64,000 bases of DNA from NCBI RefSeq assembly GCF_041381155.1, contig NC_091142.1:33240369-33304368 (forward strand), read 5' to 3'. Below are positions 976 to 40,830 of this stretch, piece by piece (positions within the stretch are counted from its first letter, which is position 1; each line of letters begins with the position of its first letter). The notes beneath the pieces are model-generated. The model was not told the origin of the DNA, did not search any database, and saw only the letters and a list, made by a program, of their open reading frames with translations. The position numbers and the translations under genes were made by a program. This stretch comes from Argopecten irradians (Eukaryota > Mollusca > Bivalvia > Pectinida > Pectinidae).

Positions 976-998
976 TGTACTGATCGGATTTCTTAAGT

Positions 999-4483: not shown

Positions 4484-4604
4484 CTGTTTATTACTGCTTA
4501 TTTAAGGACATACTTTAATTTACCAGTAGCGTTGTTCGTTTTTGTGTATATGCTGTAATTAATTAGAGTAGGACAGATGCTAATATTGTAAGTTCATTAC
4601 AGAT

Positions 4605-11800: not shown

Positions 11801-14800
11801 TTGTGACGGCGAGCCAATAGTTTTCTACCTTGTTCCATCAGCTAGCCCCCGGACTATAATGATTTAATCTACGCCTGGAAATATACAGGTACACAAAAAC
11901 AACAAAGAACACATTGTTAAAACTCGACAATATGTAAGAAGCTAAATGTAGGACTAAGATGCTACAAACCCGCTGAAGGATGACGTTTCAAAGCTGCAAA
12001 TGTTTCCGGGCAGAATGTCTACCTTCACATTTTCGTTAATCGTGATGTCATCTTCTCCAAAATGGACACAAAAAAACTCGCATTCTGTCAGATCTATGCC
12101 TCCTGTCTTTGATAGAGGAAGTTTCATTTGTACCGGTTTCAGAAAGGCCTCGTCATGTTGGATACAAAGTGTATCGGAGTAACCAACGACTTCTGTCAAT
12201 GGCGTACTCTCAACCACTGGTTCAAGCTGTTAAAATAAATGTACGATGAAAGCTTACTACTTCGTATCATACTTGAAGTCACATATTCCTACATTTAAAT
12301 TGTGTATTTGTATTTGCATACTACTTGTAAGAATTGTGGCGTCATGATATTGAAAGCAAAACGTCTTATTTTTCAAAGCTAAATAAACAATGCGATTTCC
12401 GCAAACAAAATATTTATGTAATAATCCTTCACACACAGGTTAGGTAGATAACTCTGTAATATGAGACGCGCTACATGTAGAATATGTCTGTATCCCATTG
12501 CGTTCATACCACCTTTAACGCAATCAAAACACTGTTCAATATATATATTTACATAAATAAATCTACTTTTACTTAAAAATTGGAAACGGTGATGGTTGCT
12601 AAGTTGGGTAGTCAGGATGACAAAAGATATAGTTCCGATTGTTGAATGTTATAGCTGCAGTTTGGTTTGAAATATAACAATGACACTTTTCAATTATTTT
12701 CAAAATATTTTTTTTTCAATTTGATAATATATCAATAATGTCCATTTCGAATAAAAAATGATATAACCAAGGCGGAACGACTACCGGTATGTATCGTTGT
12801 CAGGGTAGTGATGCGGTACGAAGTGGAGCGAGCCGCAATATTTGATTTTCAACCGAGGAAAGTGACTGTGATATAGCCTATTGATGGTATGACCGTTGAG
12901 CTGCTGAATGTTTGTCATGTATGTATCGGTCTTAGAACGCTATTTAGACTAAATTCTTCATAGCCATGATTTTTTTTATTGTACGGGGGATAGACAAGTG
13001 TTTGCGTGTGTGTAGGCCTATTTTGAATGCCAAGACGCCCCCATTTAAGCTGATGATACTGTTTCGGATAGGCTACCTGTAATGGGTTTTTTCTGGAAAC
13101 CTGTATATGATCTGTTAACCTATCGTTCGCTTAGACGCTCCCAGAATTGTTCACCGACAATCAGATGTTCTGTATATTTAGTTGAGATAAGTTACCGTAC
13201 ACACATGTACAACTGACGTAACTATGGGATTCCCCGAACATTACTGAGGAAAGCCCCCGGTTGAAGACCTGACCAGCGATTCATTTTGTAGTTTATTACC
13301 GTTACAATGCTTGAACACATATATTGTTTTGATGTCAAATACATATTGAATCTTATAAAAACTCTATTGTTATTTCAAAATCCGTCAACTTATGACGCAA
13401 AATCTTATCGAAGCGTGAACTAGAAGTAGTCCGAACCTGCACTGAGTTTGTATTCATACGTCATTGCGTTTACGCTAATTTGAACGCAACTCCCCTCCCG
13501 TTGACTATATCGGGACATATGTAAATATATATAAATGTATGGAATAGCGTGTATATATTTTATGTTTTAAAACCATGGTTGCTGGTTTTCCTGAAGATTG
13601 TTTTTACCTTGATTTGTATGTCTCCCTTCGACTCCACGATTCCGACAGGAAAGTCCACCACCACATCAGCATTTCCAGGATAAACATATGAACATGCTTC
13701 GTTTGGATTCAAAGTTTTCGTCCTATATTATAAAAGAAAATGAAAGTACAATGTATAGTGATATTATAAAATAAGGCTGCGTGAGAGAGCAACAGGAGGC
13801 ATTGTTCATTGTTCAATCCTATTTTAGATTAGTATTCAAATAAAAAAAATGAAATGAAATGAGAGATAAACATATTTACATTATTAATGTTACATCTAAT
13901 AAATCGTATTTACATACAATCAATCGTTGTGGCCACCGTGGCGTACTAAGTTCGAGTGAGATGGGGAAAAAACAGATATTAATGAGTAGTACCTATCGTA
14001 CGGTATAGACGGTTATATTCGCGAGGATGATCCTATCATGACTTCGCAGAACATTGTTACGATAGCAAAACAAATTAACTCATATATACCATGTAAATCA
14101 GAACGCGAAAACTTAAAACCACATAAAAGGAAAAGTTCACGTCTTTACTTTAAGTTGCGTAAATATCCGGCTATACGTTATACCCTATAAAGGTGCTAAG
14201 GTATCGACACCATGGAGATCATCTTGCAATATTATTAGGATTTTCTTCAAAAATATGTCAAAACATCTTCGTCTAACCTTTTTGTGTCGATCAGAATATC
14301 GGATCCTCGGTATGTTCACAGTTGAATTATATTATCATCAGAAATATCGCCAATTTCCTATTTTATTAGTGAACGATACAATTTCACGAAGCTATATATC
14401 CTCTTCACAAAGAACAGTACTTGAACAAAGGAAATAGAAAGTTGTGATATACTGAGTGGAGCTTCATCGTTAAATACCTAATCACCTATCGTCTGTCTGG
14501 ATTGTATTTCATTGCATTCAAGTGCATTATATATGTTCATATCTGACATAAAAATGTCATTTCTGAATATCATAATGACGACCTTTAGTAGATAAACAAC
14601 ATATGCCGTGTTGTGTTTAGGAGCACGATATAAAATTGTATTTATTCATTTCCTTATGAAAGTCACTTATTCACTTTCACGTACTTACGTGACAGGCTCA
14701 CGGGCATCTTCCAAATCAGCCTTATCCCTTTGGAATAAAGATTGTACAATGAAAATTATAATATATATATATATAGGATCTTGTAAGCTTTTATGGAACG

Positions 14801-17800
14801 GTTTGAGAAGTTTTTACATGTGTTACATCCGTATTTCATTAGATATCAGGCGTATTCTGTTATATAATCTTACTATTTTTATTGGCCTGTGAACATCTTA
14901 AGTCCTTTATGTTTCTATATTTCTATACCTGCTTATACGGAACCGTATTGTATATATTATAAAACAAAATGAAAGTTTGCCTTCAAAATTCAAGCATGTA
15001 TATGGCTATATCACGATAGTGTTAGCTTTATATGTACATATTTATGGGTTCCTTGGTAACTACATGTTGATTTTAAGTACAAAAAAGTATTGTATTGACG
15101 ATTTCATCGATCATATGAAACACACGTATATGTTTCTAACCTATCAACCTATCATTTTAATACCATATGCAGCGTTTGAATCACTTTATATGATTATACT
15201 GAACGTAAAGCAACACTTACGTGTTCAGGCGATAAACCAACGACTGGAATTCCCTAAAATAGAATAAAGTATGAGAAATAAGTTATTACTATCCGTGTAC
15301 AAATAGAAAAAAATGAAATCATTTATTTTTAAATATACAGTACTACAGTGTAAAGAGAGTTAGATAAAATTAAGGAACATTTAAACAATATGATAATATC
15401 CTATGGAACTATTTAACTATTCTATTCTCCGTGACTAATTGGCATTCAGCCTCAGAATGTAGCTAGAACATATGTCCAATTATAGACTTCTATAGAAGAT
15501 TGAATAAAATTGATCTAGAGCCTTTTTTGGTAGCCATTTTACAAAACCTGTCTAAAAACAACATCTCGGTTAAAGAAAATATGCTTGCATTGGTAACTAA
15601 TATTGCTGCCAGGTTTCAATGAAATATCCACAGTATTAAAGGAATTTTCCGGACAGAATTCTACAGGGAGATAATCGGACGGACTGATGTACAGACACTT
15701 TCAAGTACCTCCCCCAACCACCTTACTCGCCCTAACGTCTTTGCGAGGACGGGGTATAATGAAATTGTAGATTCTTTGCTTGTTTTTTGTTACATATAGC
15801 AAAAACTAATATTTTAGTACTTACATGGTATCAAAATATGTAGCTCCTTCCTTCAACCTGTGAATTTAAAAGATAAAATCTTTAGCATCCCGTCTGATAT
15901 CGCATGTCGTATTTTTGCGATGACGTTATAACGCATTTTCATGCCTAACTATTGTTGCGGCTATTCGGTATTAAGGCTTTTAGAGCCAAGACATTGTGAC
16001 GATTAATGTTCACGATTTCTGTATACTCAAATAAAACAAAATGTAATCGCAGTTTGAAATAAGCTGGTTTGTAGTAACCTGGACACTTAGGCCATATATG
16101 TATCTATATACAACGGAACCAGGTTGTGTTTTATTAGTTCAACGTCCTATTAACAGCCAAGGTCATGTAAGGACTTGCTAGGTTTATTGGTGGATGTAAG
16201 TCGGAATACCCGGAGAAAAGCACCGACCAGCTGTCAGTACCTGGCAACTGTCGCACATGAGAACTCGCGACCCAGAGGTGGGGGGCTTGTGTTAATATCT
16301 CGAGACATCTTAACCACTCGCCCACCGCGGTTCCACACAACGGAACCAGCAAACACCTGTTGGTCTCAAGTGGGAGTCTATAGCACATTTGTACATGTAG
16401 AGGCCCTTGTTCCCTGGTCCCGTTTGTGGTCTTTATAGACAGGTATGGCTGTAATTGATGGGGTAAATGGGTGTGTGTTCCAATCAAGAAAAACTTTTAT
16501 TTCGTTTTCTATTGTTTATTATAACATGCTTTTCTTTCAATATTTTGATCTTTAAATTTAAAAACATTTCAATGACACCTACCTTACTATCAATAGGTTG
16601 ATTTTCGTTTTCCTGAAGAAAAAACATTCAAAATAATCCACATAAAGAACAAATCCATTTTCATCAATATACATGTATATCTTAAAAACCGAAGAATTAT
16701 CGATGCATTGATACCAAACACTGTCGAACTTACTATTAAAATAACCAGAATAACTAGCATTTGATACATACGTGTGTTGGTGTAATACTTTGGTAAAGTT
16801 TAAACACAGATAAATAATCTTAAACTAGTTAATGCTTACAATAATGAAGTATCTTTAATTTAATGATATATAATTTGAAATGAGGATATTATTAGCAGAA
16901 ACTGCCCGATTTAAGTTAATAAAAGAACTAATGTACCATAATTTTACCATTTGTTAAAAATTTGTTCCTGCATATATATAAGTGTTTTTCTCAATTACGA
17001 AAACGGAAAAGTTAATTTAACATGCATTTGCTGTGGACTTATCAAAGGAAATTAAATAGGAAATTATTACATTACTACAACATTTTCTTAGCTGTATCTT
17101 GAAGCGTGTATACAGTATCATCTCCTTTGATATTGAAAAAAAGTGAACATTTAATGACGTTATGTCACGTTTACACTATCTTGTTGGTACTGTGGATTTC
17201 ACAGGGATTCCTTTTTATTTGTATATGTTAACATCATGTGTATCATCTCCAAATGATATGACTATTCACGTTATAAATAATCGATTGCCAACAAGGTACA
17301 TATTGTTATGTAAGACACTAAATACATGTAGTTATTAGATAAGGGAGATCTCTCATTTAGCTTTAGTATTGATACATCCTATAAAGTTCATATCAGTAAT
17401 TTAGGCTATAGAACTTTCTAGAATAATATCATGTATAAACATACTTGTTTGTAAACATGTTGATTATAAGTAGGGATCTAGATTGATCTATTCCCGGAAA
17501 GATCTGTGTGTTTATTTGTTTACTGTTTTTAGTTAGATATTTCTAGAAGTAGAAAGTTCTCAAATATTCTTGAATTAGGGTTTAGCTATATATACTCCAG
17601 CTACCCAAGGCTAATCAGAACTGTAATGAGACCTGTAATTCGACATATCAAGAATTGCACAGCGCCATATAAGATTATATTGGGAGAACTATTGTGACTT
17701 TATCTGTGGATTATTACAACACTTTGTGTGGATTTATTCATATTGCCTGGAACTTTACAAATCATCTGTGGACATTCATTTTCCTTGTGGATTTGTGATT

Positions 17801-20800
17801 ATTGTTAATTTGAAACCTGGAAGGATCAAGGGTTATACCAGGACATTCGCATACAGATAAGTAACACTTTAAATCATCGTATTACTCTTGTACCACCACC
17901 AATTACTTTAGATATTGTAAACCACCTCTGTATAATATTGTATATATAATTAAATTGTGTTTTGAATTTAGCTGCTGGTTTCTCATTTCTGTTATTCTAG
18001 GTCATAACAATATCATTATCGTTAGCGCAGAAAAAGACGATACCTCAAACATTAAGCTTTCCTTAAACCTTCATGCTATGAGACTAGCCAACCTCATCCT
18101 ATGGTATACTTACATGTTAGCGTGTAGACTGACTAGGAGCTTGGACCACCTGTAAATATACAAATGCATTACACAACCTAAAGAGACCTTCTGGTAAACG
18201 AGTGATATTAAGCAGAATGCCCTACAGATTTATGACTATAAAAATGTCTTTTGGATTATCTTGCAATGTATTATATCAAGTATTATCAAGTTTAACTCAT
18301 TTACACAGATATTTGAATAAATTAATTCAGGTAGAGCTACATTGACGATGGAATAAGTCTCTAAATATAGAAACATGAGGTTCAATATCACAATTAATCA
18401 ATACATTCTGTGGGTTAAGTAAACAAATATCGAAAGCAGTTAAAGAAACTTCTATTTAGGAAGAATTCGGTATTTTTCATTATTACGTTACGCTGTCTAC
18501 ATACCCATATTCTTCACACCTGTGAATAAATACAGCAAGACATATAAAAGTATTATGCATTTCATTCTATTATCATTATTGATTATGGCACTGTGGTATT
18601 ATTATTACATTGATAGCATTAATATCCATGTATAACACATATCGGAAATTTCGCGGTTAGCTATATAAATTTTATAAGTGGGGTTTAATATGTGATATAT
18701 GTACTGTATGTAAAACTTATGCCTTTTTGGGGAAAAATTCGCGAGGTATCCATTTCAGCAAATTTGGGTGAATTCGCCAAACTAGCGAAATGAAGACCTC
18801 CACGGATCTTAGCAATTATACAGTAGCTAGATGGGTTAATTCAGACAGATCAATAAGATCTGAAACAGAACAAAGTTACATTGATATGTGTCAAAGAAGT
18901 AATATGAACGGTTGTGTTCCAGATAACACTGATCCTTAGAAACATATATTTGTAGGATGCAAAAACTTAGAGTAGTAAATATGGGACAAAGAAGAACAAA
19001 TTAAGGACGGTTACAAATGTTCACAAAAAAATAACTATGAACACATATAGAACATATACTGTAATTTTATTTGTTCTCTTTGTTCTTTCTCGACAAAGAG
19101 GCAGTCGCCCAAAAAATTCGACATTAATTTGTCCACACTGGTAGAATTACCTCTTTGCCCCATACTTTCATTGATACTCGTATGCCTATCATGCTGTTGA
19201 AAGTGTTGTTTGAACGTTGAACATAGCAGTGAAGTACCACTGTAGTATTCTGTAATATCCTTACACTACAGTTATTTCTTTTTATAGATATGGTAAATTT
19301 ACTCACTGTCTACGAAACTCTTGGATTTCACGACATCTACAAAACAAACAGTGCATAAAAAAATATAGTATTTTCACAAAATTTATTCTTATTTCAATTT
19401 GTCATTCATTTAAAAAAAAAATCCTTTCAAATATGGTAAAATGATTTGACAATTAGCTGCCAAGCAACATTACAATCTCTACCAAACAATCTCGGCTGAC
19501 AATATAAGGGATATCTAGGTATGAAAATACTTACATTTCTGAAACAGAATCGAGGCCCTCACTGAAAGAAAATGAAATTAATTTGAAACATTTGTCATCA
19601 TTATGAAACATAAAACAAGGCGTGATAAATATATATATTGACTTGTAATGTCTACTTTATAAACTACCCAAGCCAACGTAAATTATATGTATGTATAAAT
19701 GACACCAAAAACACGGTCATTACAAATTTTTCATGTTGTCGTGTAATGGTCAACTGATCATCGTCAAAATGACTGCTACATCTTGTGGAATATATCGTGT
19801 TCAGAAATTGTTTTCCTGGGATCATTAAACAATCTTCAATCCTAAGTCCAAAACTGTCTTAAGTTTAACCAATCAAAGATGACATTACAAAAGGTATTAA
19901 TTTTCTGATTGGCTAAGTCTAAACTAAAGTCTCAGATTGTTTCATGATCCTAGAGCTTAGTCTAACCTAAACAACGTTGTAGAAGAGGCCCCACAATATG
20001 GTAATACATTATGTTTTCATAATGCTCTGGTCCACATTATGAAAAAGCTCTGCAACGCTATGGTATCTATAATAACCATAGGTTATTTAAAATAGCTTAT
20101 TGTTTAAATATGATACAATTGTCTCGTGCGGTATCCTAAAGTTTCATTTTGTGCAAGATCTTTCTATTCATTTGATTTAGGTAAGGTAATATATTTACGA
20201 CAATCGCGATTACACGAGTATACATTCTGTATTTCTGTATGCGTTTATATAACACGTCGTATATGTTAGGCCCTACTCTATCTACCTTTTGAGAATATTT
20301 AGGCCTTGGTGACTACGTGGGGATATGAAAGTTATACTCACTTGTCTAGTACAGATAAAAGGTCCTCTTCGGATCTAAATGAAATAAAACAAATTATATA
20401 AAGATCATCCCAAAAATAATTAATAAACCATCTTCATGGTAACTTAATTACAGCTTACGAGTAAAAGTAAAATTCAAGAAATGACGGAATCATCAAAGAC
20501 CTATGGAACCCTTAGCTGCCATATATGCTTGAATTTGATTTAATAGTAACATAATATTTTGGTTTATTTTGATATAATTTCATTTTACTTCAATATATGA
20601 TTCCACGTTATCAGTATATGACTTGAAATTATCATTGCTGTATTTCACTTTGATCATTTTATAATCTATTTTTTTTTGTCATGGCTTTTATTTGATTTTC
20701 CTTTACGCCAATCAATGAATACATTATTTAGATTGAACAAAAATCAATATATGATATTAAAATCTCAATATCATTAGACAACGTAAATGCATTTTATTTT

Positions 20801-23800: not shown

Positions 23801-26800
23801 TTATTAAAAGGTGAAAAATCACACAATAAAATAATCAATAACTCACTTGTCAGATATATTCAAAGCGTCTCTGTATCTGCGAAGAGGTAAAAAAACAATA
23901 GTATAATTTCAAAGGTATTTTACATTGATATATTGTTAATGTTTATTGAAATGAAATATAAAATAATCCTTTATTGTTGGTAGTTTAAATCATTATTATA
24001 CATTTTGTATTATAATTGGTTCCAGGTTGCCAGAATTACACGTATACACTATCAATGACAAGAATCAACACTGATGATATTATTATTATTATTGTATCCA
24101 TGCAATCACATGTAATATTTGAAGTGCTAAACGGTCTGGGAAGAATTATTATTTGTCAGTGGAAGTTTCTCTCTGTATTTCCTGTCTTTCCTTCTCCTTT
24201 AGAAACAGTTTATACACCAGGTAAACTTAACAAAAAGTCTGCACAGCAGTTACACAGTTTTTAGTCAAATCAATATAACCAGTGTCCACGATGTTTCCAA
24301 AATGGATTTACAGAACTAAGGATCAAGCGAGTCCTATCAATCAAATCTAAGGCAGACCTATTCAGCGCTTCCTTAGAAAGTGTAAAAAGAAGGCTGCATA
24401 TTTGTATTGGTGATTGCTGATCACTGACAAAATGCAATTAGCAGATACAAACTATGTATCTAACAAATGTACTTGTAAAATTTCAGAGAGATCTCTTAAG
24501 TACTTTTTGATTAATCACAATAACAAACTGATATACAGACAGACCCCTTTGGTACTTTCTGGGAAATAGCGATAAAAACTTCAACTACCAAAACCTTAGG
24601 TGACTGCTAGACCGAAACGTAATAAATATAATAATTCACTTATTAACACATTAGCATACCTAGTATTTCGTTAATGTGTGGAAACACTAAATGATTTTAC
24701 TCACGAGCAACATATGTCGTAAAGGAACTCTCTGAAACAATGAAAACACAAAAATTACAAGATATACAAAACTAAGAACAAGAGGAAAGCTAACTAACGA
24801 GTCGCTAGTTGGAGCCATTTCGTTTGACATAGAACCGCAAGATTTGACTTCGACGTTACAAATTGCGGTTTTGTCAATCAAGATATATAAGCAATCACAT
24901 GAAAACAATCAGTTATGTTTCTTGTTTAATAGTAATATACATACCCATTTTTCCGCCATCTGTAAAAGGAAATGTCGTATCTCAATTAAGAACATGTTCT
25001 ATTCAATCAAGGTGTAAATAATTACAATAACAATCAACATGTTTTCTCGTGCGACACAATTTTCCACATGTCGCGGTCAGAAGTAATTGTACAAATGAAT
25101 TCGAATACAATTACAAACTGATTATTGATATGTTAGAACTCTCGAAATTATAAAGTCACAAAGTTTCTATACAAAACTAAAGCGGGAAAACAAATTGTTT
25201 ACCGATTCAACAGTACTGTATTGTTAATAACTTTTTTTTAAATTTATTTATGAAGAAAACTGATATAGACACTGCGCATGTTTTCTTATTCTTTTAACAA
25301 TATTTTGTATTTTTATATTTTGGTATTGTTATTAAGATATTTCTGAAATGAAATGAAATCCCGGTACATTTTTCCTCATTCAGGTATTAATTAGGTATAG
25401 AATTCCGTAATTTTACTTACTTTTACAATGAAACAAATTGACTTGTTGCGCAGTGATATCTTATTTAATAATTTAGTTTGACCAATGACTGTGCCGCTTT
25501 TAAAATTCCCCGCGAAACCGTTTTGTATATATGACGTCATAATACAATTCTTTCAGCCTATTGGAAAATAACCGCAAAAATATAACCAATAGAAGTGTAA
25601 CATATGAATATACAGTCATTTGATACATGTTTTATATGTCTAATTAAAAAACTTTGCGCAATCCAGTATAGCCGACATATACGTAGTAAACATGGCTTTT
25701 AAAATCATTAAGACATATTATAAACACAAAATATACATGATTTCACTTAATTAATTAATTACTCGTTTATAAAATATACTTTGCGTTACTTTACAATTTA
25801 TATTGTAATCAAGAAACATATAAAACGTGTTTGCAGAGAATGAAAGTCGGCGGCGGAAACTACGTGCTAGCACCAGACACATGTACTGTACAATATGCAC
25901 ATATGTTTCTGGTTGTATTGAATTTTACAAACATCTAAAATGCACCTACATTTATAAAGATATACAAATGTACGTACATACATACAACATAGGCTTACTC
26001 AATAATGCTACATGTTCTTTGTATTATCTCATTTATTATAAATATAAAATTATAATTCGTGATACTTGATTTGACCGACTAATTTAATTATAAAACGGCT
26101 GAGATTGATTGTTAACAAATTCTCGCACATACCTACAGATCAGGTTTAAATAGTGGATAAACATAATTACCAACTGAATACCTTTTAGTAAACCTACTTT
26201 GAAACAAGTGGATTGAATACTGCATCAACGTGGAAATGTGTAGACCTAATAACGCCTCGGTAATTGTCGGTTATGACATGCTTCAATGGTCACTGCAATC
26301 ACTTCAGTTCAGTTAAGTCTTTTTTTTTTGTTCATTGGTCGACTGAACCCAGTCGCATTCAATCAGAATTTGAAAGCAGACACTTCAGTTTCAACGTGAT
26401 ATCCGCCAGGGTTTCAGGGGTATCGTTCTGAATAACCTAGGCTAGCGAAGTTGACTTCGTCCAAACTACATAATTATACTATACCTTATCAGAAAAATAT
26501 GTAAAATAATATTTAACATACTTACTTCAGCAGCCATACTTCCAAGTCAGACAATCTGTAAAATAAATAAACAGATCGATACTTATACAATGAAATGTGA
26601 TAATATGAAAAATAACCGAGAAATTAAAGTTCAGTGACCTGTTATTGGCTTTGGAATAGAATGTCAATTTAGTTCTATTGTAAACTAACCTTAAACGTAA
26701 GGTAGTAAAACCTGTCAAAAACATGCTAGGAACAATGTAAAACCTGTCTATAAAAACCTCTATAAAAACCACTCCAAGAACAATGTAAAACCTGTCAAAA

Positions 26801-29800
26801 AACATGCTAGGAACAATGTAAAGCCTGTCTATAAAAACCACTCCAAGAACAATGTAAAACCTGTCTATGAAAACCATTCTAGGAAAAATGTAAAACCTGT
26901 CTATAAAAACTACTCCAAGAACAATAAAAAACCTGTCTATGAAAACCATTCTAGGAAAAATGTAAAACCTGTCTATAAAGACAACTCTAGATACAATGAA
27001 ATTGTAAATTAGTTTTTGGTATACAAATATTTTAAGCTGTCAACTTACCTCTCTGGTAAGTGTTCCTCAAGTCTACAAAATTAAAATAAAAAAATCCATT
27101 ACAGAATCCAACATTTACATTTACGATTTTATCTTGTTACGGTGAAGATCACTGTGACACCTTTTTGTTTGTTTTCGCGGGATATTTTCGCATTTTCGCA
27201 GTTCATTACTATGATTCTCGAAAATTTTCGAAATTGTTAACTCATATATACCCTTAAAGTTAAAACCGCTAAAACGAATTTGTTTCGTTTTCAATGAAAT
27301 CAAATTGCGAAAATAATCAATTCCTAAACCTGTAATTAGATCCTTGAGCATGTTGTCAAAATGCCTAACAATGAATTGGTTAATCATAAGATAAGCCAAC
27401 GTCACGCATTAAAACAAATCGTTAGTAATTTTAGTTGATACCCTCCGACATAGAAAGTATAAGATTTCTTTGTTTATTTTTGACAAGTATACAGCTCTAT
27501 GTTGACACCACACATGTCACATTTACTGACGCCGTTGTCTGTTTATATGTTGTTTTGTATTTCATAAAATTCTATTTTCTACAAAAACAGGTTTTAAAGT
27601 GAAAGTTGTTAAAAGATCTCTGTTAAAATCCAAGAAACCAGAGTAATTATAATATGACAGAACACAACTCTCAAGAGCACATGTTATCAATTTTGGAAAA
27701 CTCACTTTTCCTTTACAGAAAAAATCCAAAAATAAAAATTACGCTACAAAAAATGAGCGATCAAATGCCGAATGCGGAGCCTTCTGCTTATCGTCTTGAT
27801 GAATTATTTAATAATTTACGTTTATGTTTTACATATAGATAGGTAGAGCGTTTAAATAATATCTGCATTCCCCTTACAAAAGACGACTAAATTCAGAACT
27901 TAACCTTTTATCTTATTCTTAATTTTATTTTTTGCTTGCATTTAGGTGTCTTACGGCGTAGCCCTACAAAAAGAGATCAATATCAAGGCACAACACGAAT
28001 ATACCACAACTTCCAAAACATTAACAACACATTACATTACATATAAAGTCGTCCCTAATTTATCTTAGATCTAAAATGACGTACGGTCTAATCAGCCAAC
28101 CAACCATAAAAAAATTAATGAAAATTGATACATACTCTTGCAGTAGAGCTTCCCTTTCTCTGGAAAAATTAATAAATATAATTTCATGTAACAAATTGTT
28201 TCGTAATTTTTGAAGAGTTACGGGTTTCAGATTTATTTACACATTAAGTGGCTTACAAAACACGATTCATTGAGGTTAAAAAACTACATTATCAATATTT
28301 GCCAAATTTAGCAGTATTGAAAGCCATAGAAGATATCAGACAAGTAAATGATATAATATATATACAAACCTTTTGTCGATGTTTTCAAATTTCTCAAAAC
28401 TGAAATGGAAAAACCAAGCTTTTAGTTTCGAAAAAAGTATACCTGTTATGAATAACTTTTTAAAAATGTAATAAAATTTACTTTATTTCTCTTCGCACGA
28501 ATATATTTTTGGTAATGCTTGAAAATTTGAAACATTTTCACAATAATAATTGATTTTGAAAAAAATGAATATTTTAAACATCATAGTTGTAGCGTATTAC
28601 AGTTATAGTTATATATAAATTCATAATAGATTTATCATAGTAAGCACATAAGGCGTTTATGGAAGTGTAACCATGGAGATATAAACCACAAATTTAATTA
28701 TCTTTTCTAAAGCTCGGTCTGTTGAGCGTCAGACAAGTACGTCAGAGTCAGAGGTCCAGAAATTGACCCCTAAAATCATGCGTTTTGTTGTATGAACAGG
28801 TTACCTCGACTCCCAGGCTTTAATTTGATCACGTCTGAAAGAAAGTGTCAATATATAAATCTATATAGATTTTACAAACTGGACATAAAAAAATACCATG
28901 AAAACCTAATAGCATTTCAATCTTATATTGAAATTAATATTGTATTGCAATGCTCGAATTTTGTTCTTCTTTATTATTTCTTCTTCAAGTTGTAAACAAA
29001 TCTGAATATCCTTGTCTTTATTAGGAAAAGTTATCTACTTTTAGAAATAACTGTATTGTATATATCTTACACGAAAATCTTAGATATGTTGATGGACGCA
29101 ACTAAATGAACTCGAATACAAAAAGAAAAATAAAGTAGATATGTTTTAAATGATTTGCCTTACAGACATTCAGCCAAAATAATAATATATAAATGGTGAT
29201 ATTTACAGCTGTGTTGGCGTCTCCCTGTCAATCAGAAACATCAGAATTACCATGGCAGTTGAAGCATTAACTACGCACTTTAATAATCCACATTAAATTA
29301 TCCTACAAATGTTATATTTTACCAATTGAAAAGAAATAACATTTATACATTTGTATAAAATCATATATGTACAATGTTGTTGTAAATTGCCTACAACAAT
29401 ATTTCTTTATTTAAGAAATATTATTTAACTTCATCGTAATGATAACAGTACATATATAGGATAGAGAATGGTTTACATAACACGTATCCAATTACTTGAA
29501 AAAGGAAGACTCGAGAAAGCAAAAAGTAATATACGACCTTCAGGGAATTGTGACTTCACAAAAATCAGGTCAAAATATGGTGTCACTATCACCGGAAGAA
29601 GAGAATAACTGATGATAAATAGTACTTTGGAATCTTGATAGTATATTGACGCTAGACGCGGGACAGTTCTAGTAATACACATGATTCTTCTTCTATAGCA
29701 AACTGAGTCGTTTATATTGCAATTATTGGAAAAGATTCTTTACACATTACGCTACGTAGGTTAATATTATTAACTTACCTATCTTCCATCAGCCTAGACA

Positions 29801-32800
29801 AAACAACAAAGCAAACATTTACAGAATATCACATCAACATTCTGACATTTAACAATGCCAAAGTGAATGATTCATATCGAATCTTAAATTGGTGGTCATT
29901 AATTAAGTCGTTTCATAATGAGGTAAAAACAGTATATAGCTAGTATATTAATAATCCGAAATAAAAGGCCAAAATTAATTCAAAGTAAAATCAAAATCAT
30001 TTCTATGGAAAATATGTTCAGCCACTATAGGGCCTTCTCAGTCCAAAATAATACTAACACAACGTGTTTGTCTACATGTTTGTTTACATTTTGTTTACAT
30101 TAAGCTGTTTATCTAACGAGTTTTAGATGATCTTATTATTCCATAACTTAATCAACAAAGAGTTTTCATTCCTAACGTCATTGTTGAAACATGTCAACAT
30201 AATGAAAAGCTAAGCCCTGTACTATAATCTAAAAAATTACATTTCTTAACATTTTATTAAAAATAACCTGATTTCTCTTTCAATTGTGTTACTGAATTGT
30301 TATAAACTGCCGTCTTTCCTGGATAAAACATTTAATCCTATATACCACGTTCAAACAATCTGTCATTTATCTAGGTTTGATTTATAAGACCAAATTAAGT
30401 TTTCAAGATGCTCCACCGCTGACAAATGGTATTTTTCCTAAATAAAAATCAAGAGCAGGCGATTTAGTATTTTTCTTCAGTTGTAAAAATTACTTACTTT
30501 ACACCATTACCACCATTGAAAAGTTTGAGCTTCTAATTTTATTTCAAGATAAAAATATCAAAAATGATTAATTGCATCCAGAATAAAATTGGTGGCACTA
30601 TGTTTTATATGGAATGACGTACTTATTGCTCAAGCAGCAAAGACAAAATAATTTATTTTTTATTATATTTTGTGTTAATTGGCCATATATATGCATGATT
30701 AAACATCAATAATTTTTCAAATTATGAGTATAATATTCATGCTCTGTCGGCGGTGGGGCATCTTGAAATCCATTATTATTTTTATACATGTAATTCTGTG
30801 GATGTAGACTCACACCAGGGATACTTGTAACATGTTACCATAACGCCGACCGACAAACACAATACACAATTATACACCACAACATCAACTCAATTCGTCC
30901 TTTGTCCGAAGTAACTAATATGTACTTTGTTTCAATTATATCCACATCATCACAAAACAGGTTTCAATTTGCAAAATAAATCCATCCAAACGTATCATCA
31001 GAAAAACACAGACAGATAACCGACATCGATATAAAGTCGGTTTTTATTTTCCGTAGTGGTAGGACAAAATACGCAACAGAACTTGTAGTAGTGTTTGAAA
31101 TAAAAATTTTAGGAAACGTTAACTACATGTGCACGACTGTATGTGGTACGCCATTGTAACCAAGATTATTGTTAGAAAGATTCCGTCTGTCATAATTGTA
31201 GGAAGGGTCACAATTCTTTGGTATTCGCATGAATGTTTTCAGAATATAAATATTCAATTAATAATCCATTAAAACTTAATTGAAAATTGATACTTACTCT
31301 TTGAATAAAGCCTTTCGCACTCTGGAAACGTCATTAAGATAACGATATGAAGATACATGTATTTGTAGATGTACATATAGTTTTTAATTTTATAAGAGCT
31401 ATGGTTATAACGGGCATATCTTATTTGTTTTCGATCCAACATCCAAGTCTTATTCATGATAATCTCAAGCTCATTTCTAGCAAAATAGATGATGAATACA
31501 TTACTATAAATTGAAAGATTGAAAATAACTTTGTAAATGGAAATCCTTTACATAGTTAAAACAAGTTTTAGAAAATGGTCAGGATATATTTTTATAAGAA
31601 AACAAATACATCTACACTTTCATACAGGTACAACCGCTAACACATCAAAGAGCTTTCATTGGCTTGCATGTAACTCAACAGAAAGAATGGGTTAGAAAGG
31701 TTACTACTGTAAGGATAACACTCACTCTTCGTCGACATTTTCAAATTCCTCTGATCTAAAAAATATTTTCGTAAAATAAAAGTTTGTTATTATTTTAATG
31801 AAAAACGCATTAAGAATGCGCTTTATTTTATGACATAGAACATGATAATCATTGACAAACACTACACATTTATTTTACTCGTAAAATGCATAATTATCAA
31901 CAACAGACAGGAATACGATCAATTTTCAGGTTAATGGGAACTAGTTTCGTTAAAATGTATTAGTTTTGCAATAATCAGAAAGTTAATTTCAATTCCTGAA
32001 AATCCTACTATATTGGAAATGTATGATTCGATTATACCACTTTTTACCGGTTGTAACATATGTTATGATATAGATTCTATACAGGTACCCGCTAATTGAA
32101 TTTATCAAATATAAATTCTTTCATGTACTGACTTTAAAGTGAACAGTCGGGCAAGGATGGCTAAAGTCGATAAAAATGGTGTGAAAGTATCCAGTATAAT
32201 TTCTTATGGAATAGAAAAATAAACTTTCTCGTCAAAATCCGTCTGCGTACGTAGAAATTAATTTAAAGTATAGAAATATTAAAACGTCCTCCCAGCTGAC
32301 TATGTTACATTCCTACGCAGCCTCGCTTTCAATGCTTTCAACTTTCCTTTATTTCAATGGTCAGAACTGGGAAACGTAAGCAGAACTTGACCGTCGTATT
32401 AATATGTGAGAACTTTTGGAAGGCCAATGAACGCATTTAGACTGGTTTGCTTTGCCCGCCGACTATTCACTTTAAATGTCACGGACATCAATTGTATACT
32501 GATATTAGGAAATAGGTAAAGCTTACGTTAAGTCCCAGCCTTCAAATTGATCACGTCTGAAATACAATATCAATATAATCTTACAGGCAATGCATGAATC
32601 TTTCATTATGATATTTACCATTCTCAAAATGAAATATTATTTTAATTACAATGTATCAGGAAAAAATCCACTTAAAATCTTGTTATTTGTGAATCGTTTA
32701 CCTTGAACTTGTAAACAAGTCCGTAGGGTATTGTCTTATAATTCCAAATAAAATGAAATCGATCTCAAATAAAACAGTCCACAGATATATTTATGAATAA

Positions 32801-35588
32801 AAGAATTAGTATAATTTGGCTATGCTTCCAATAGTTTGCTTTTGCCTTTAAATACATCAACCCCCCAAAAAACGTATAATATTAAAATATGGTGATATTT
32901 ACAGATTGGTCGGTATCTCATTTTCCTCGTCTCTTTCATTCCTGAAATCAGTAACATTGAAGAACTGATAATAAGCATTCGGTAATCCAAATGTTGAATT
33001 ACCCTACAAAATAGTTTGGTTTACCATTAAAACGTTATATTAGCAGCGATTTAGTATTTTTCTTCAGTTGCAAAATGACTTACTTTACACCAATTACCAC
33101 CATTGAAAAGTTTGAGCTTCTAATTTTATTTCAAGATAAACAATATCAAAAATGATTTAATTGCATCCAGAATAAAATTTGGTGGCACTATGTGTTATAT
33201 TGGAATGACGTACTTTATTGCTCAAGCAGCAAAGACAAAATAATTTATTTTTTATTATATTTTTGTGTTAATTGGCCATATATATGCAGATTAAACATCA
33301 ATAATTTTTCAAATTTTGAGTAAAATATTCATGCTCTGTCGGCGGTGGGGCATCTTGAAATCCATTATTATATTTTTATACATGTAATTCTGTGGATGTA
33401 GACTCACACTAGGGATACTTGTAAACATTTTAGTTACAAGTTATCAAATTAGTCCTTTGTCCGAAGTAACTAATATGTACTTTGGTTTCCCATCAATTAT
33501 ATCCACATCATCACAAAACAGGATTTACAATTTTGCCAAATAAATCAATCCAAACGTGTTCAACAGTAAAACACTGACAAGATAACCGACATCGTGATAT
33601 AAAGGTCCGGTTTTTTTTATGTTTTCGTAGTTGGTAGGTACAAAACAACTCACACAGGAACTAGTAGTAAGTGTTTGAAATAAAAAATTTTTAGAAAACG
33701 TTTTACTACAATTGCACTGACTGTTATGTGGTACGCCATTAGAAACCAAGATTATTGTTAGAAAGTTTCACGGTCTGTCATAAATGAAGGAAGTGGACAC
33801 AATATCCTTGGATATCTCGCATATTTGTTTTCAGAATATTTAAATAAACAAATTCAATAATACATTTTAAATCTTAATTGAAAAATTGATACGTACTCTT
33901 CTGAATAAAAGCCATTTAGCCACTCTGGGAACGTAATTATGTTAACGGATTATGAAGAATACTATGTATTTGTAGATGTACGATATTGTTTCCAATTTTA
34001 TAAGAGCTATGGTATATAACGGGCATATCTTATTTGTTTTCGATCCACATCCAAGTCTTAATTCCATGATAATCTCAAGCTCATTTCTTGCAAAATGGGA
34101 TGATGAATACGTTACTATAAATTTGAAAGATTGAAAATAACTTTGTAAATGTCCTTAAATAGTTTTAGAAAATGGTCAGGATCTATTTTTATAAGAAAAC
34201 AAATACATCTACACTTTCATACAGGTTCAACACGCTAACACATCAAAGAGCTTTCATTGGTTTGCATGTAACTAGACTTTAAAAAGGAGACAAACTCAAC
34301 AGAAAGAATAGGTTAGAAAGGTTACTACTGTAAGGATAACACTCACTCTTCGTCGACATTTTCAAATTCCTCTGATCTAAAAAAATATTATCGTTAAAAT
34401 AAAAAGTTTTTTGTTATTATTTCAATGAAAAAACGCATAAAGGAGAATTGCGTTTTATTTTATGACATAGAACAGGATAATCATTGGACAAACACATACA
34501 CATTTATTTACTCGTAAAATGCATTATTATCAACAACAGACAGTCAGGAATACGAAATCAATTTTCAGGTTTTATGGGAACTTGTTTCGTTAAAATGTAT
34601 TAGTTTTGCCAATAATCAGAAAGTTAATTTCAATTCCTGAAAATCCTACTATATTGGAAATGTATGATTCGATTATACCCACTTTTTACCGGTTGTAACA
34701 TATGGTATGATATAGATTCTACTACAGAGTACCCGCTTAAATGAATTTATCAAATATAAATTCTTTCATGTACTGACTTTAAGTGAACAGTCGGGCAAGG
34801 ATGGCTAAAGTCGATAAAAATGGTGTGAAAAGTATCCAGTATAATTTCTTATGGAATAGAAAAATAAACTTTCTCGTCAAAATCTGTCTGCGTACGTAGA
34901 AATTAATTTAAAGTATAGAAATATTAAAACGCCCTCCCAGCTGACTATGTTACATTTCTACGCAGCCTCGCTTTCAATACTTTCAACTTTCCTTTATTTC
35001 AATGGTCAGAACTGGGAAACGTAAGCAGAACTTGACCGTCGTATTAGATATGTGAGAACTTTTGGAAGGCCAATGAACGCATTTAGACTGGTTTGCTTTG
35101 CCCCGACTATTCACTTTAAATGTCACGGACATCAAATTTTATACTGATATTAGGAAATAGGTAAAGCTTACGTTAAGTCCCAGCCTTCAAATTGATCACG
35201 TCTGAAATACAATATCAATATAATCTTACAGGCAATGCATGAATCTTTCATTATGATATTTACCATTCTCAAAATGAAATATTATTTTTTAATTACAATG
35301 TATCAGGAAAAAATCCACTTAAAATCTTGTTATTTGTGAATCGTTTACCTTGAACTTGTAAACAAGTCCGTAGGGTATTGTCTTATAATTCCAAATAAAA
35401 TGAAATCGATCTCAAATAAAACAGTCCACAGATATATTTATGAATAAAAGAATTAGTATAATTTGGCTATGCTTCCAATAGTTTGCTTTTGCCTTTAAAT
35501 ACATCAACCCCCCAAAAAACGTATAATATTAAAATATGGTGATATTTACAGATTGGTCGGTATCTCATTTTCCTCGTCTCTTTCATTC
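8584..35588 (-). CDS. Microexon-rich ZU5-UPA-death-domain gene
   Basis: A multi-exon minus-strand gene. Its 3' part has four ordinary exons: 13608-13722 and 11970-12226 (ZU5), 10558-11126 (UPA-like) and 8584-8897 (death domain). Their splice phases fit at every junction (phase 0, 2 and 1). Upstream are at least 31 microexons of 15-42 bp between strong gtaagt/gtgagt donors and pyrimidine-rich acceptors. Thirty have lengths divisible by three and stay open when read with phase-2 introns on both sides. They would encode about 300 charged, probably helical residues. ZU5-UPA-DD is the intracellular cassette of UNC5, UNC5CL and PIDD, proteins of apoptosis and NF-kB signalling. No signal peptide, membrane segment or leucine-rich repeat is seen, so a cytosolic adaptor is the likeliest reading (inference). 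Any microexon could be skipped without a frame change. Candidate 5' exons lie at 41.7 and 45.0 kb. Confidence 0.8.
8898..10557 (-). other. Intron between UPA-like and death-domain exons
   Basis: 1.66 kb of AT-rich sequence. A pyrimidine-rich stretch with a short tcta run lies near 10276-10320. No other feature seen. Confidence 0.6.
10558..11126 (-). CDS. UPA-like exon
   Basis: 569 bp, entered in phase 2 after tatatag and left in phase 1 at gtaggt. It encodes 189 residues beginning NAVYIRRKLKTMYKDTLEAF, the end of the ZU5 region, then HNILLFIGDRF, a beta-rich segment with RIRITLGSNGPL and VFINVVPGGND, and HTAYFDPRQ. A Ser/Thr/Arg-rich linker to the death domain follows. The position between ZU5 and DD and the beta-rich character suggest a UPA domain (in UNC5 and PIDD it packs against ZU5), but similarity by eye is weak, so 'UPA-like' is safer. 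The paralogous exon at 51192-51742 matches over nearly its whole length. Confidence 0.7.
11127..11969 (-). other. Intron between second ZU5 exon and UPA-like exon
   Basis: About 840 bp of AT-rich sequence. No repeat or exon recognised. Confidence 0.6.
11970..12226 (-). CDS. ZU5 exon 2
   Basis: 257 bp, phase 0 in and phase 2 out. It encodes LEPVVESTPLTEVVGY, then AFLKPVQMKLPLSKTGG, which matches the ZU5 block 'kPV.l.LP', then ECEFFCVHFGEDD and CSFETSSFSG. The donor used (gtttgt) is weak; reading on instead gives a TAG a few codons later. With this donor the phase meets the UPA-like exon exactly and gives SFSG-NAVYIRRK, a plausible end strand of the fold. Confidence 0.75.
12227..13607 (-). other. 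Intron within the ZU5 region
   Basis: 1.38 kb. No exon seen in the minus direction. The part near 12780-12880 is GC-richer and resembles interspersed-repeat debris. Nothing else recognised. Confidence 0.5.
13608..13722 (-). CDS. ZU5 exon 1
   Basis: 115 bp, phase 2 in and phase 0 out (donor gtaaaa). It encodes TKTLNPNEACSYVYPGNADV followed by VVDFPVGIVESKGDIQIK, the early strands of a ZU5 domain, where 'v.iP.G.v' is typical. The paralogous exon is 52279-52391. It marks the change from the microexon array upstream to ordinary exons. Confidence 0.78.
14689..20374 (-). CDS. Microexon cluster 1 (7 microexons, 27-39 bp)
   Basis: In transcription order: 20342-20374 (SEEDLLSVLD), 19535-19561 (EGLDSVSE), 19307-19336 (CREIQEFRR), 18114-18149 (WSKLLVSLHAN), 16583-16612 (KTKINLLIV), 15825-15857 (LKEGATYFDT) and 14689-14727 (DKADLEDAREPV). 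Lengths are 33, 27, 30, 36, 30, 33 and 39 bp. All are open with a phase-2 intron on each side, and the last meets ZU5 exon 1 in frame. Most donors are gtaagt or gtgagt. The 16583 donor (gtaggt) overlaps an alternative gtaagg that would break the phase. The content is charged and probably helical; no known domain is recognised. Confidence 0.75.
16127..16334 (-). mobile_element. tRNA-derived SINE
   Basis: Read on the minus strand, the head has a box-A-like segment (GGGCGAGTGGTTAAG) and a box-B-like segment (GGTCGCGAGTTC). A conserved body with CTCCGGGTATTCCGAC follows, then a tail with GGCTGTTAATAGGACGTT and an AATAAAACA end. This pattern is familiar from mollusc SINEs. It lies in an intron of the microexon gene, in the same orientation. 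The 117- and 87-aa ORFs across it are chance. Confidence 0.8.
17304..18009 (+). mobile_element. Solo LTR, copy 2
   Basis: Second copy of the LTR at 7761-8464, with the same ends (TGTTATGTA... and ...ATAACA) and scattered substitutions. The left flank is CATAT; the right flank reads ATATC, so any target-site duplication is blurred. It sits in an intron of the microexon gene, about 100 bp from microexon 18114-18149. Confidence 0.72.
19819..19950. mobile_element. MITE with about 50-bp inverted arms
   Basis: The left arm begins ggatcattaaacaatct. The right arm reads ...agattgtttcatgatcc, its near inverted complement. Both arms continue into matching 'aagt.taa.ccaatca' stretches. There is no coding capacity, and it sits between microexons. 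Confidence 0.75.
21073..24959 (-). CDS. Microexon cluster 2 (9 microexons, 15-42 bp)
   Basis: In transcription order: 24945-24959 (WRKN), 24705-24731 (EFLYDICC), 23847-23876 (YRDALNISD), 23348-23374 (IQDVSGID), 22930-22962 (IDEATLNRLK), 22723-22764 (IKEQLTMKPIYPC), 21777-21791 (QALS), 21446-21475 (SNSLANRCS) and 21073-21102 (VDRCKQNNT). Lengths are 15, 27, 30, 27, 33, 42, 15, 30 and 30 bp, each open with phase-2 introns on both sides. Donors are nearly all gtaagt or gtgagt, and most acceptors end ttcag, acag or ttag. 22723-22764 is also open in phase 0. No domain is recognised. Confidence 0.75.
22332..22476. mobile_element. MITE / foldback, about 145 bp
   Basis: The left end runs aaggattaacttgaat... 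to tggagatataacacaaa. The right end is the near inverted complement (tttgtgttatatctct... to attcaaattaatcctt). The arms are about 55 bp with a short loop. It is non-coding and intronic. Confidence 0.78.
23142..23303. repeat. Short tandem repeat, about 24-bp unit
   Basis: Roughly six or seven imperfect copies of a unit like tattgatattaatctgacaa, alternating with atataaatattaat. Intronic; no function seen. Confidence 0.7.
26526..29793 (-). CDS. Microexon cluster 3 (7 microexons), with the oldest copy of the four-exon module
   Basis: In transcription order: 29779-29793 (LMED), 29207-29224 (ETPTQ), 28805-28834 (RDQIKAWES), 28370-28399 (FEKFENIDK), 28136-28159 (EREALLQ), 27049-27072 (LEEHLPE) and 26526-26555 (LSDLEVWLL). 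Lengths are 15, 18, 30, 30, 24, 24 and 30 bp, all with phase-2 introns on both sides. The four from 29207 to 28136 match, in order and nearly in size, the modules at 32.9-31.3 kb and 35.6-33.9 kb. This makes a third, more diverged module copy. Confidence 0.75.
26702..26998. repeat. Minisatellite, 36-bp unit in 72-bp dimers
   Basis: Eight units starting 'gtaaaacctgtct'. They alternate between a 'ccactccaagaacaat' end and a 'ccattctaggaaaaat' end, giving a 72-bp dimer in the second half; unit lengths are irregular (32-48 bp) in the first half. The 140-aa ORF read across it on the minus strand (repeated VFIDRFYIV) is a translation of the repeat. Intronic. Confidence 0.85.
30405..30764. mobile_element. 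MITE, AAGATGCYCCACCGCYGACA ends, copy 1
   Basis: Starts aagatgctccaccgctgaca and ends tgtcggcggtggggcatctt, a 20-bp inverted terminal repeat with two mismatches. A related copy lies at 58919-59185 in a SHPK intron, and a copy without the left end at 33044-33356. There is no coding capacity. Confidence 0.85.
30449..33043. repeat. 2.6-kb tandem duplication, unit 1
   Basis: Starts inside the MITE (gcgatttagtatttttc) and ends at aaaacgttatatta, where unit 2 begins with the same gcgatttag. Carries four microexons (31298, 31726, 32527 and 32903). Confidence 0.9.
31298..32941 (-). CDS. Microexon module, duplication unit 1 (4 microexons)
   Basis: In transcription order: 32903-32941 (39 bp, NERDEENEIPTN), 32527-32556 (30 bp, RDQFEGWDL), 31726-31755 (30 bp, SEEFENVDE) and 31298-31321 (24 bp, VRKALFK). 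All have phase-2 introns on both sides and strong splice sites. The module is acidic, with aromatic residues in the two 30-bp exons (QFEGW, EFENV). It corresponds exon by exon to 35550-33897 and 29207-28136. No known motif is recognised. Confidence 0.78.
33044..33356. mobile_element. MITE copy without its left end
   Basis: Right part of the MITE seen at 30405-30764, carried along by the tandem duplication; ends ggcggtggggcatctt. Confidence 0.8.
33897..35588 (-). CDS. Microexon module, duplication unit 2 (4 microexons)
   Basis: In transcription order: 35550-35588 (39 bp), 35172-35201 (30 bp), 34347-34376 (30 bp) and 33897-33924. The first three equal their counterparts in unit 1. The fourth is 28 bp instead of 24, so it would shift the frame if included. 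The surrounding sequence has the same surplus of small insertions, so this may be a sequence error, real decay, or an exon that is always skipped. This module is the most 5' confidently recognised part of the gene. Confidence 0.7.
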
Positions 35589-35918
35589 CTGAAATCAGTA
35601 ACATTGAAGAACTGATAATAGCATTCGGTAATCCAAATGTTGAATTACCCTACAAAATAGTTTGGTTTACCATTAAAACGTTATATTAACGTCTCGCTAT
35701 ATACTGAACTGTGAAATCGTGCTTCTTAGATATACAACCTTATACATGTAGATTTCATATCTTCATCTGTCTATTTAAAGGTCCACTATACGTAACTGTT
35801 CATTCTTATTTGCAATCATAAACGTTTACAATGACCGAACATTGAAACCAATGACTAGAATAAAAGATGAACGACGTATTATTATGACATAAGTCCATGC
35901 AGATAAACCTATGATATC

Positions 35919-36110
35919 TGTAGTAAATATACGGTGCACAGTGTTATTTGTATAAACTCGGACTTTAGTAAGTCTGTTAATCTGTATCACTACACGCTTG
36001 TATGTCTGAGCATGCGCATTGTAATAAACTGAATACAAGATGGAAACCTCCATGATGATGTCACTTTGTGTTGTAAGCTACTAGAAACGGGTTTTAGCTA
36101 CGATATAACA
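35919..36110 (+). repeat. Gypsy 5' LTR
   Basis: About 192 bp, TGTAGTAAA... to ...GATATAACA, with a TATAAA-like stretch near its start. Matches 40619-40830. Confidence 0.85.
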
Positions 36111-36124
36111 TTCTGGCGACGAGG

Positions 36125-36900
36125 ATGGCTGGACGCATGGGGAAAATCGACAACTTTGACGATTCCGTCGAGTCGTGGAAGTGTTATCAGGAACGTCTGG
36201 AACAATTTTTTAGGCAAATGAGGTGCCAAATGGAAAAAAAAGTTCCGGTGTTGTTGAGTGTTATTGGCGGGAAACCGTTATTCCATCCTGCATGACTTGG
36301 TTGCACCAGATTTACCGGGTGATAAATCGTATGTAGATTTGGTCGGCGTCTTAAATGGACATTTTAACCCTCAACCGCTACAGATAGCCGAGCGTTTTAG
36401 GTTTCACAAGAGATACCAGAAGTCGGGTGAGTCGATCAGAGAATTCAATGCAGCCATACGAAAATTAAGTGAGCATTGTGGGTTTGGACAGTCTTTGGAT
36501 GAAACTTTGAGAGACAGGTTAGTGTGTGGTCTACGTAATGACAATATACAAAAAGAAACTGCTGTCTGAAGATAATCTGACCTATAAAAACGCGTTAGAT
36601 ATTGCAATTGCAATGGAAACTGCATCCCGAGATGCTGTGGAACTTCAGAGGGAAAGTCAGGAAACATTGTAAACAAAATAAACAAGGTTAACCAAAACAA
36701 GAAAATGAAGAAAAAAACTCAACAAAGCGGCTTAAAGAATGAAAAGAAATCACAGAAACCATGTTTTCGGTGCAAGGGAAAAAATCATAGTGCGGAGGAA
36801 TGTTTCTACAAGGACTACTCGTGCAACGCTTGTAAAGAAAAAGGACACATACAGAGAGCCTGCCGAAACACAGAAAAGAAGTCTAATTCTGGAAATTAAA
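36125..36900 (+). pseudogene. Gypsy Gag remnant
   Basis: Begins MAGRMGKIDNFDDSVESW, a common start of Gypsy Gag in invertebrates. The C-terminal part has two zinc knuckles: CFRCKGKNHSAEEC (C-x2-C-x4-H-x4-C) followed by CNACKEKGHIQRAC. Part of a broken fossil element. Confidence 0.85.
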
Positions 36901-37049
36901 AAAAGGGGAAGGTGTACTCTCTAGATCACGATGACAGTGATGATGACAGTCTACTTGGAAGTTTAACATTCACGGTAAAGAACCTCGACAGTGACGTCAT
37001 AATTGGGTAAAACCGGAAGTGCATGCGGAAGTGAACGGTTAAAGTAATC

Positions 37050-40618: not shown

Positions 40619-40830
40619 TGTAGAAATACGGTACACAGAGTTATTTGCGTATAAACTCGGACTTCTGTAAGTCTGTTAATCTGTATCTACACGCTTGTAT
40701 GTAAAACGCGTCTGAGACATGCGCATTGTAATAAACTGAATACAAGATGGAAACCTCCATGATGATGTCACGTTGTGTTTTTTTTTTTTGTAAGCTACTA
40801 GAAACGGGTTTTAGCTGTACAGATATATCA
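40619..40830 (+). repeat. Gypsy 3' LTR
   Basis: About 212 bp, TGTAGAAATAC... to ...GATATATCA, preceded by the polypurine tract. It contains a T-run and small insertions absent from the 5' LTR. No convincing target-site duplication. Confidence 0.85.

Follow-up and report, generated by a model that had tools for sequence, protein, structure and literature searches.

A putative array of symmetric, same-phase microexons preceding a possibly ZU5-UPA-death-domain-like gene part in Argopecten irradians

The stretch of Argopecten irradians DNA considered here (contig NC_091142.1, positions 33,240,369 to 33,304,368) is 64,000 nucleotides long and is referred to as the window, with positions numbered from its first letter. 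Its minus strand carries an array of about 30 microexons of 15-42 bp that are symmetric (length divisible by three) and share one phase, and the case that this array is real at the DNA level is convincing. Downstream of the array lie four longer exons, here termed the cassette, which when joined form an open C-terminal part of 417 residues. The reading favoured here, with a probability of about 0.6, is that the gene is real and unusual and encodes a helical N-terminal arm from exons included mostly in order, with the skipping of some exons a secondary matter.

Evidence for the microexon array

All AG and GT dinucleotides were scored with one fixed acceptor/donor matrix, set by hand from the metazoan consensus without training on the genome itself (acceptors scoring 3 or more and donors above 3.4), and non-overlapping AG..GT pairs of 12-60 bp were kept, with length and frame ignored. 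Counts are given as candidates/symmetric/symmetric and open in phase 2. On the minus strand at 13.8-35.7k, this unfiltered scan yields 24/20/20 at a threshold of 14; at other thresholds the counts are 39/29/26 (12), 30/23/22 (13), 17/15/15 (15) and 12/10/10 (16). The 20 symmetric candidates at threshold 14 are all open in phase 2, whereas reading in phases 0 and 1 leaves 9 and 11 of them open, respectively; the other four of the 24 start at 26711, 27743, 24558 and 16356. If symmetry were random, at least 20 of 24 would be symmetric with a probability of 7e-7, and 20 of 20 would be open, at the shuffle rate of 0.46, with a probability of 2e-7; both values are approximate, since the threshold was chosen manually. 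A recent tandem duplication at the upstream end of the array does not inflate the scan, as the count is still 24/20/20 when the region is cut to 13.8-29.9k to exclude it.

Could AT-rich DNA, with its wealth of AG..GT pairs, have given rise to such a pattern by chance, the in-phase pairs having simply been selected? Candidate pairs are indeed frequent, with 16.9 per shuffle at threshold 12, and the minus strand at 44.5-64k, which contains a paralog of the gene, gives 7/6/4 at threshold 14 and thus four symmetric candidates open in phase 2. Against this, 40 dinucleotide shuffles at threshold 14 have a mean of 6.8/2.3/1.05 and a maximum of 14/6/3, so that none of the 40 exceeds three where 20 are observed. 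The plus strand of the same region gives 8/2/1, the reversed sequence 6/3/1 and the plus strand at 44.5-64k 15/4/2. Base and peptide composition also differ from those of random segments. GC content is 0.418 in the 33 exons listed below and 0.297 in their flanks, and 5000 random segment sets have a mean of 0.309 and a maximum of 0.379. For peptide analyses, 29 of the 33 exons were joined, the first duplicated block being omitted as a near-duplicate; aspartate and glutamate make up 22.1% of this peptide, whereas 500 sets of random open segments drawn from this region average 5.7% and never exceed 10.7%. Chance is rejected on these statistics and retains next to no probability. A sequence-only reading of the window had described a symmetric, phase-2 microexon array, and the unfiltered counts bear this out.

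A list of 33 microexons, totalling 946 bp, was compiled after the scan. Symmetry and phase-2 openness served as a filter, together with block homology, and the finding that 32 of the 33 are symmetric and 32 of 32 open is therefore no separate test. Twelve are exactly 30 bp, five of the 33 are at least 36 bp, and the introns between microexons are 165-1566 bp. The sequence-only reading had counted 31 exons; the array and its twelve 30-bp members stand, and the list has grown to 33. Splice-site score totals (sums) are below 11 in the members that begin at 35588, 32941, 31755, 29224 and 23374, the first four of which depend on block homology.

Twenty-one listed exons, all on the minus strand, lie outside the repeated blocks that are treated in the next section; length, peptide and sum are given in brackets. 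They begin with 29779-29793 (15 bp, LMED, 19.4), 27049-27072 (24 bp, LEEHLPE, 18.1), 26526-26555 (30 bp, LSDLEVWLL, 15.9), 24945-24959 (15 bp, WRKN, 16.0) and 24705-24731 (27 bp, EFLYDICC, 14.5). There follow 23847-23876 (30 bp, YRDALNISD, 19.3), the weak 23348-23374 (27 bp, IQDVSGID, 10.5), 22930-22962 (33 bp, IDEATLNRLK, 15.5) and 22723-22764 (42 bp, IKEQLTMKPIYPC, 14.3), the last with a 3' end in TG. Further downstream are 21777-21791 (15 bp, QALS, 19.3), 21446-21475 (30 bp, SNSLANRCS, 15.7), which also ends in TG, 21073-21102 (30 bp, VDRCKQNNT, 13.4), 20342-20374 (33 bp, SEEDLLSVLD, 15.0), 19535-19561 (27 bp, EGLDSVSE, 16.8) and 19307-19336 (30 bp, CREIQEFRR, 14.4). The array then runs through 18505-18519 (15 bp, CEEY, 15.5), 18114-18149 (36 bp, WSKLLVSLHAN, 17.0), 16583-16612 (30 bp, KTKINLLIV, 22.7, the top sum among the 33), 15825-15857 (33 bp, LKEGATYFDT, 15.7) and 15221-15253 (33 bp, EFQSLVYRLN, 16.1) to the last microexon at 14689-14727 (39 bp, DKADLEDAREPV, 14.2). 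One array intron holds a copy (17299-17997) of a repeat of about 700 bp, 93% identical to a second copy at 7756-8452.

Growth of the array and use of its exons

A four-exon block present in three copies shows, at the level of DNA, that the predicted array grew through tandem duplication. Two tandem copies of about 2.6 kb (30454-35688, minus strand) are 90.5% identical over 2711 columns with 93 gap openings; block 1 (35688-33042) and block 2 (33042-30454) each carry microexons A-B-C-D. In block 1 these are A at 35550-35588 (39 bp, NERDEENEIPTN, weak donor, sum 8.1), B at 35172-35201 (30 bp, RDQFEGWDL, 12.8), C at 34347-34376 (30 bp, SEEFENVDE, 11.9) and D at 33897-33924, which at 28 bp does not keep the frame and is the sole non-symmetric exon of the list. 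Block 2 has A at 32903-32941 (39 bp, 8.1) and C at 31726-31755 (30 bp, 9.8), both identical to their block 1 copies, B at 32527-32556 (30 bp, 12.8) and D at 31298-31321 (24 bp, VRKALFK, 12.7). Divergence between the two blocks is uneven: each of the first two 250-column windows has 0 substitutions, the number reaches 45 in the window starting at 33959 and it drops to 6 in the last. This unevenness, together with the many small indels, could reflect gene conversion or uneven assembly polishing.

The third copy, at 29.2-28.1k, is older. In blastn comparisons (E up to 1e-3) it is matched only around exons B and D: B lies at 28805-28834 (30 bp, RDQIKAWES, sum 16.7; match to blocks 1 and 2 with E 1e-6) and D at 28136-28159 (24 bp, EREALLQ, 11.9; match including flank, E 5e-4). 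When exons B and C of block 2 are placed without gaps, the best match falls at the expected place in block 3, with 23/30 and 21/30 identities, and for C (28370-28399, 30 bp, FEKFENIDK, 13.2) this is the top place in 29.5-27.6k. The A-like exon at 29207-29224 (18 bp, ETPTQ, 10.3) is aligned with exon A by MAFFT only. A common ancestral exon for the microexons outside blocks 1 and 2 was also considered and is unsupported, the mean score over 300 pairs being 7.24 compared with 7.32 after shuffling.

How might such an array be used? In the favoured reading, the microexons would be spliced largely in genomic order to give an acidic, mainly alpha-helical stretch of about 270-300 residues. It would be followed by the C-terminal part, which probably resembles a ZU5-UPA-death-domain module. 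The helical stretch may serve as an arm for oligomerisation or as a scaffold, placing or clustering the part that follows. Exon blocks would have been duplicated in tandem within phase-2 introns, each gain or loss of an exon preserving the frame; some exons are probably also skipped in alternative splicing, as a secondary feature. The hydrophobic moment of the joined peptide peaks at 100 degrees, the alpha-helix angle, among 13 angles tried (z 3.4 relative to residue shuffles), and this helical moment is equalled by one of 500 random open sets; both alternative frames of the joined 29-exon sequence contain many stops. Searches for a named helical domain in the joined array peptide gave no significant match (best E 0.22 in Pfam, 0.035 in PDB and 0.096 in NCBIfam). 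An argument for fixed-order inclusion from helical register was set aside, as genomic order is favoured weakly and the result is suggestive only.

The exons might instead be skipped independently, producing very many N-terminal variants for recognition or as a scaffold ahead of a constant C-terminal part. This is a doubtful reading of the sequence, although several observations fit it: 32 of the 33 listed exons keep the frame, 556 of 561 forward exon joins are free of stops, helical periodicity in genomic order does not significantly exceed that in permuted orders, and exon skipping is seen in transcripts of the schistosome MEG genes (PMC4015677). The earlier proposal that skipping any exon keeps the frame thus holds for 32 of 33 exons and fails in five joins of 561, where a TGA stop is created (22764 to 21475, 20374 or 19336, and 21475 to 20374 or 19336). 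None of the five is an adjacent join, so that skipping would be possible for most exons but not for all. Tandem duplication alone yields symmetry, with no skipping needed. Array splice sites, with mean scores of 7.5 for acceptors and 7.1 for donors, are at least as strong as the cassette sites (acceptors 4.8, 6.2, 1.2 and 8.0; donors 5.9, 5.1 and 8.7) and so do not suggest frequent skipping, a comparison that is biased because the array was partly picked by that score.

Neural microexons that depend on SRRM4 have a UGC motif just upstream of the acceptor. Here TGC occurs within 20 bases of the acceptor in 4 of 33 exons (raw count), and a motif of this type is not general in the array.

The C-terminal part, the paralog and the 5' end

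The four cassette exons lie on the minus strand and are all open. Exon 1 (13608-13722, phase 2 to 0) corresponds to a first ZU5-like part and has a homolog at 52.3k; exon 2 (11970-12226, phase 0 to 2) to a second ZU5-like part; exon 3 (10558-11126, phase 2 to 1, 189 residues) is UPA-like and 50% identical to a segment at 51.2-51.7k; and exon 4 (8584-8897), open to its stop, is death-domain-like. A stop lies within a few codons past the exon 2 donor (11957-11970), and the product of a retained intron would therefore lack both the UPA-like and the death-domain-like part.

The last microexon can be joined to 13722-13608 in phase 2 without a stop, as the sequence-only reading had maintained. Might the microexons be real and belong to a transcript that excludes the exons at 8.6-13.7k? 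The last microexon is tied to 13722 by strand, order and phase only, which leaves room for this; the fit of phase 2 at 13722 speaks against it, and a separate transcript appears very unlikely.

Is the C-terminal part a ZU5-UPA-death-domain module? It probably resembles one, judging from its sequence, but the firm label given earlier is not established. No Pfam match to the ZU5, UPA or Death profiles was found at E up to 10 in the 417-residue cassette, in its four parts or in the 689-residue product (the joined protein without block 1), and sequence searches of PDB with the cassette returned nothing relevant. A single-sequence model of the death-domain-like exon has four helices and a pLDDT of 52, with no Foldseek match at E of 0.001 or below; the model of the UPA-like exon (pLDDT 32) is too poor for a fold search. 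Pattern searches of IMG/VR and GTDB contigs for sequences related to the UPA-like exon gave 116 and 53 matches, with none confirmed. The likeness to ZU5-UPA-death-domain proteins of the ankyrin, UNC5, UNC5CL and PIDD type lies in the alignment to ankyrins, where FLKPVQMKLP of exon 2 faces FHRPIGLRIP of ankyrin-1; the difference is that significance is reached by no profile, sequence or fold search. In hhalign, the cassette aligns with three ankyrins over 346 columns with a score of 20.1, which is not significant (E 0.09, probability 0.63%); the 20 shuffles all score lower, at 11.6-18.0, as does the reversed sequence at 12.6. Including the paralog gives a score of 20.0 and E 0.098. Such an alignment is bound to be colinear, and colinearity with ankyrins is therefore uninformative.

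The array gene has a tandem paralog upstream of it, also on the minus strand. Its candidate first exon (53859-53959) has an ATG, a hydrophobic anchor and a strong phase-2 donor, and is the sole candidate of the search outside a tandem repeat at 26.7-27.0k; we take it to recall the N-terminal membrane anchor of UNC5CL. The paralog further comprises an open first cassette exon (52279-52391), preceded by a phase-1 and not a phase-2 intron, and a UPA-like exon (51192-51742), 50% identical to cassette exon 3. A second cassette exon cannot be recognised in it (best E 0.51), and its best death-domain-like match covers 22 residues with E 0.07. The paralog may have decayed. Between its anchor and first cassette exon, none of seven candidates scoring at least 12.5 is both symmetric and open in phase 2, which suggests that the array is peculiar to the downstream gene. 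The anchor-exon region is present in two copies that are 80% identical (44936-45098 and 53786-53946), and the anchor frame of the copy at 45k meets a stop.

These observations bear on the idea that array and cassette are relics of a gene with a lost start. The searches for an ATG exon with a hydrophobic segment recovered no first exon for the array gene, the anchor frame is interrupted in the 44936-45098 copy, exon D of block 1 is 28 bp, and the paralog shows no recognisable second cassette exon and only the short death-domain-like match of low significance given above. On the other side, the four cassette exons and the 20 strong microexons are all open, and with the weaker ones there is about 2.2 kb of open sequence. 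Decay of the array gene appears improbable.

Several results weigh against a helical arm encoded by an intact gene that grew by block duplication. For exon D, the block 3 partner ranks second, not first, by ungapped identity. The 25 exons below 30 kb are without detectable kinship, and the resemblance among their peptides does not exceed that of shuffles. Between blocks 2 and 3, the exons appear constrained when read in the coding frame, with a ratio of nonsynonymous to synonymous change (pN/pS) of 0.35 (0.2% of 3000 random placements), but frame 2 gives about 0.40; with the two nearly equal, constraint is not frame-specific and the ratio is not counted as proof that it is. The genomic-order value is reached by 9% of exon-order permutations for the cross-junction helical measure and by 11-17% for the moment values in five window sizes, neither being significant. 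No domain search backs the ZU5-UPA-death-domain label. In the paralog, the phase-2 end of the anchor exon does not fit the phase-1 intron that the first cassette exon needs, so a phase-2 ancestral intron is at best a presumption; a 38-bp candidate at 53152-53115 would reconcile the phases. The first exon of the array gene was not found among ATG exons with a hydrophobic segment, that search having returned only the paralog anchor exon and open reading frames in repeats, with no clear phase-1 exon in 41.7-64k. A candidate upstream exon at 41700-41772 (minus strand, phase 1 to 2, acceptor 6.6, donor 13.2) is open, and its assignment is one of phase compatibility only.

The neighbourhood is rich in repeats. 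Directly upstream of the array is a plus-strand retroelement with RNase H and integrase-core domains (35923-40830), bordered by direct repeats (36110-35923 and 40830-40620) that are 84% identical. This element and a satellite of 46 bp (42040-44487, about 53 copies, 95% matches) sit between the array and the anchor-exon copy at 45k. A 47-bp tandem repeat of about 9.5 copies occupies 62898-63343. Adjoining the paralog, on the opposite (plus) strand, is an N-terminal FGGY carbohydrate-kinase domain (55794-56408, E 1.5e-20), possibly of a sedoheptulokinase gene. On the plus strand at 984-5291 there are matches to the RVT_1 reverse transcriptase (E 5e-13) and to a phage-integrase SAM-like domain (E 2e-5), as well as a GDSL-lipase-like open reading frame (E 4e-6, under the curated cut-off); together they suggest a retroelement of the DIRS/Ngaro type.

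Relation to known microexon genes

The schistosome MEG genes had been offered as a parallel, and as a matter of layout the comparison is apt. The central coding part of MEGs is said to consist mainly of small symmetric exons between longer exons (PMC4671649, PMC4350168), and Schistosoma mansoni MEGs are set apart by the share of coding sequence concerned (PMC4015677). For MEGs 26-32, 26 of 33 newly described microexons, defined as under 36 bp, are symmetric, and MEG products are said to carry signal peptides (both PMC4671649). The likeness here is a coding stretch of symmetric microexons, with 20 of 24 unselected strong candidates symmetric compared with those 26 of 33. In contrast to MEGs, one phase is kept throughout, five of the listed exons are at or above 36 bp and the array precedes the 417-residue C-terminal part. 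The exon searches for an ATG and hydrophobic segment found no signal peptide, the 5' end not having been located. SmVAL6 of Schistosoma mansoni, a 38-exon gene in which a microexon stretch is joined to a conserved module (PMC4015677), likewise unites microexons and a conserved protein module in one gene; there the small exons follow a VAL module, whereas here they precede a module that may be of the ZU5-UPA-death-domain kind. The array would thus, by analogy and at the level of gene structure, work like a MEG array, with no claim to membership of that family, which is called restricted to platyhelminths in PMC4350168. Among the matches listed in searches of open-licence PMC papers, none describes an array of microexons joined to a ZU5 or death-domain gene, which is not proof of absence.

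A bolder proposal is that a MEG-like array of about 30 symmetric microexons in one phase arose independently in a non-flatworm animal, ahead of a death-adaptor module, and that its exons are spliced in many combinations; a single gene would then supply a wide range of helical N-terminal arms to one signalling output. Dscam, with its diversity of immunoglobulin domains, is a rough parallel to such combinatorial arms. The proposal is speculative and unlikely to be correct.

What would such an array add? The best descriptions of genes made largely of symmetric microexons come from parasitic flatworms, in which these genes are linked to varying secreted proteins. An array of about 30 exons fused to a death-domain adaptor would, if true, mean that this layout can also feed intracellular signalling, and in an animal that is not a flatworm it would mean that the layout can arise elsewhere. 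Gene finders exclude such short runs, according to PMC4671649, and the layout may therefore be under-counted. The locus also presents, in one place, how such an array may grow: by tandem duplication of exon blocks that keeps the reading frame.

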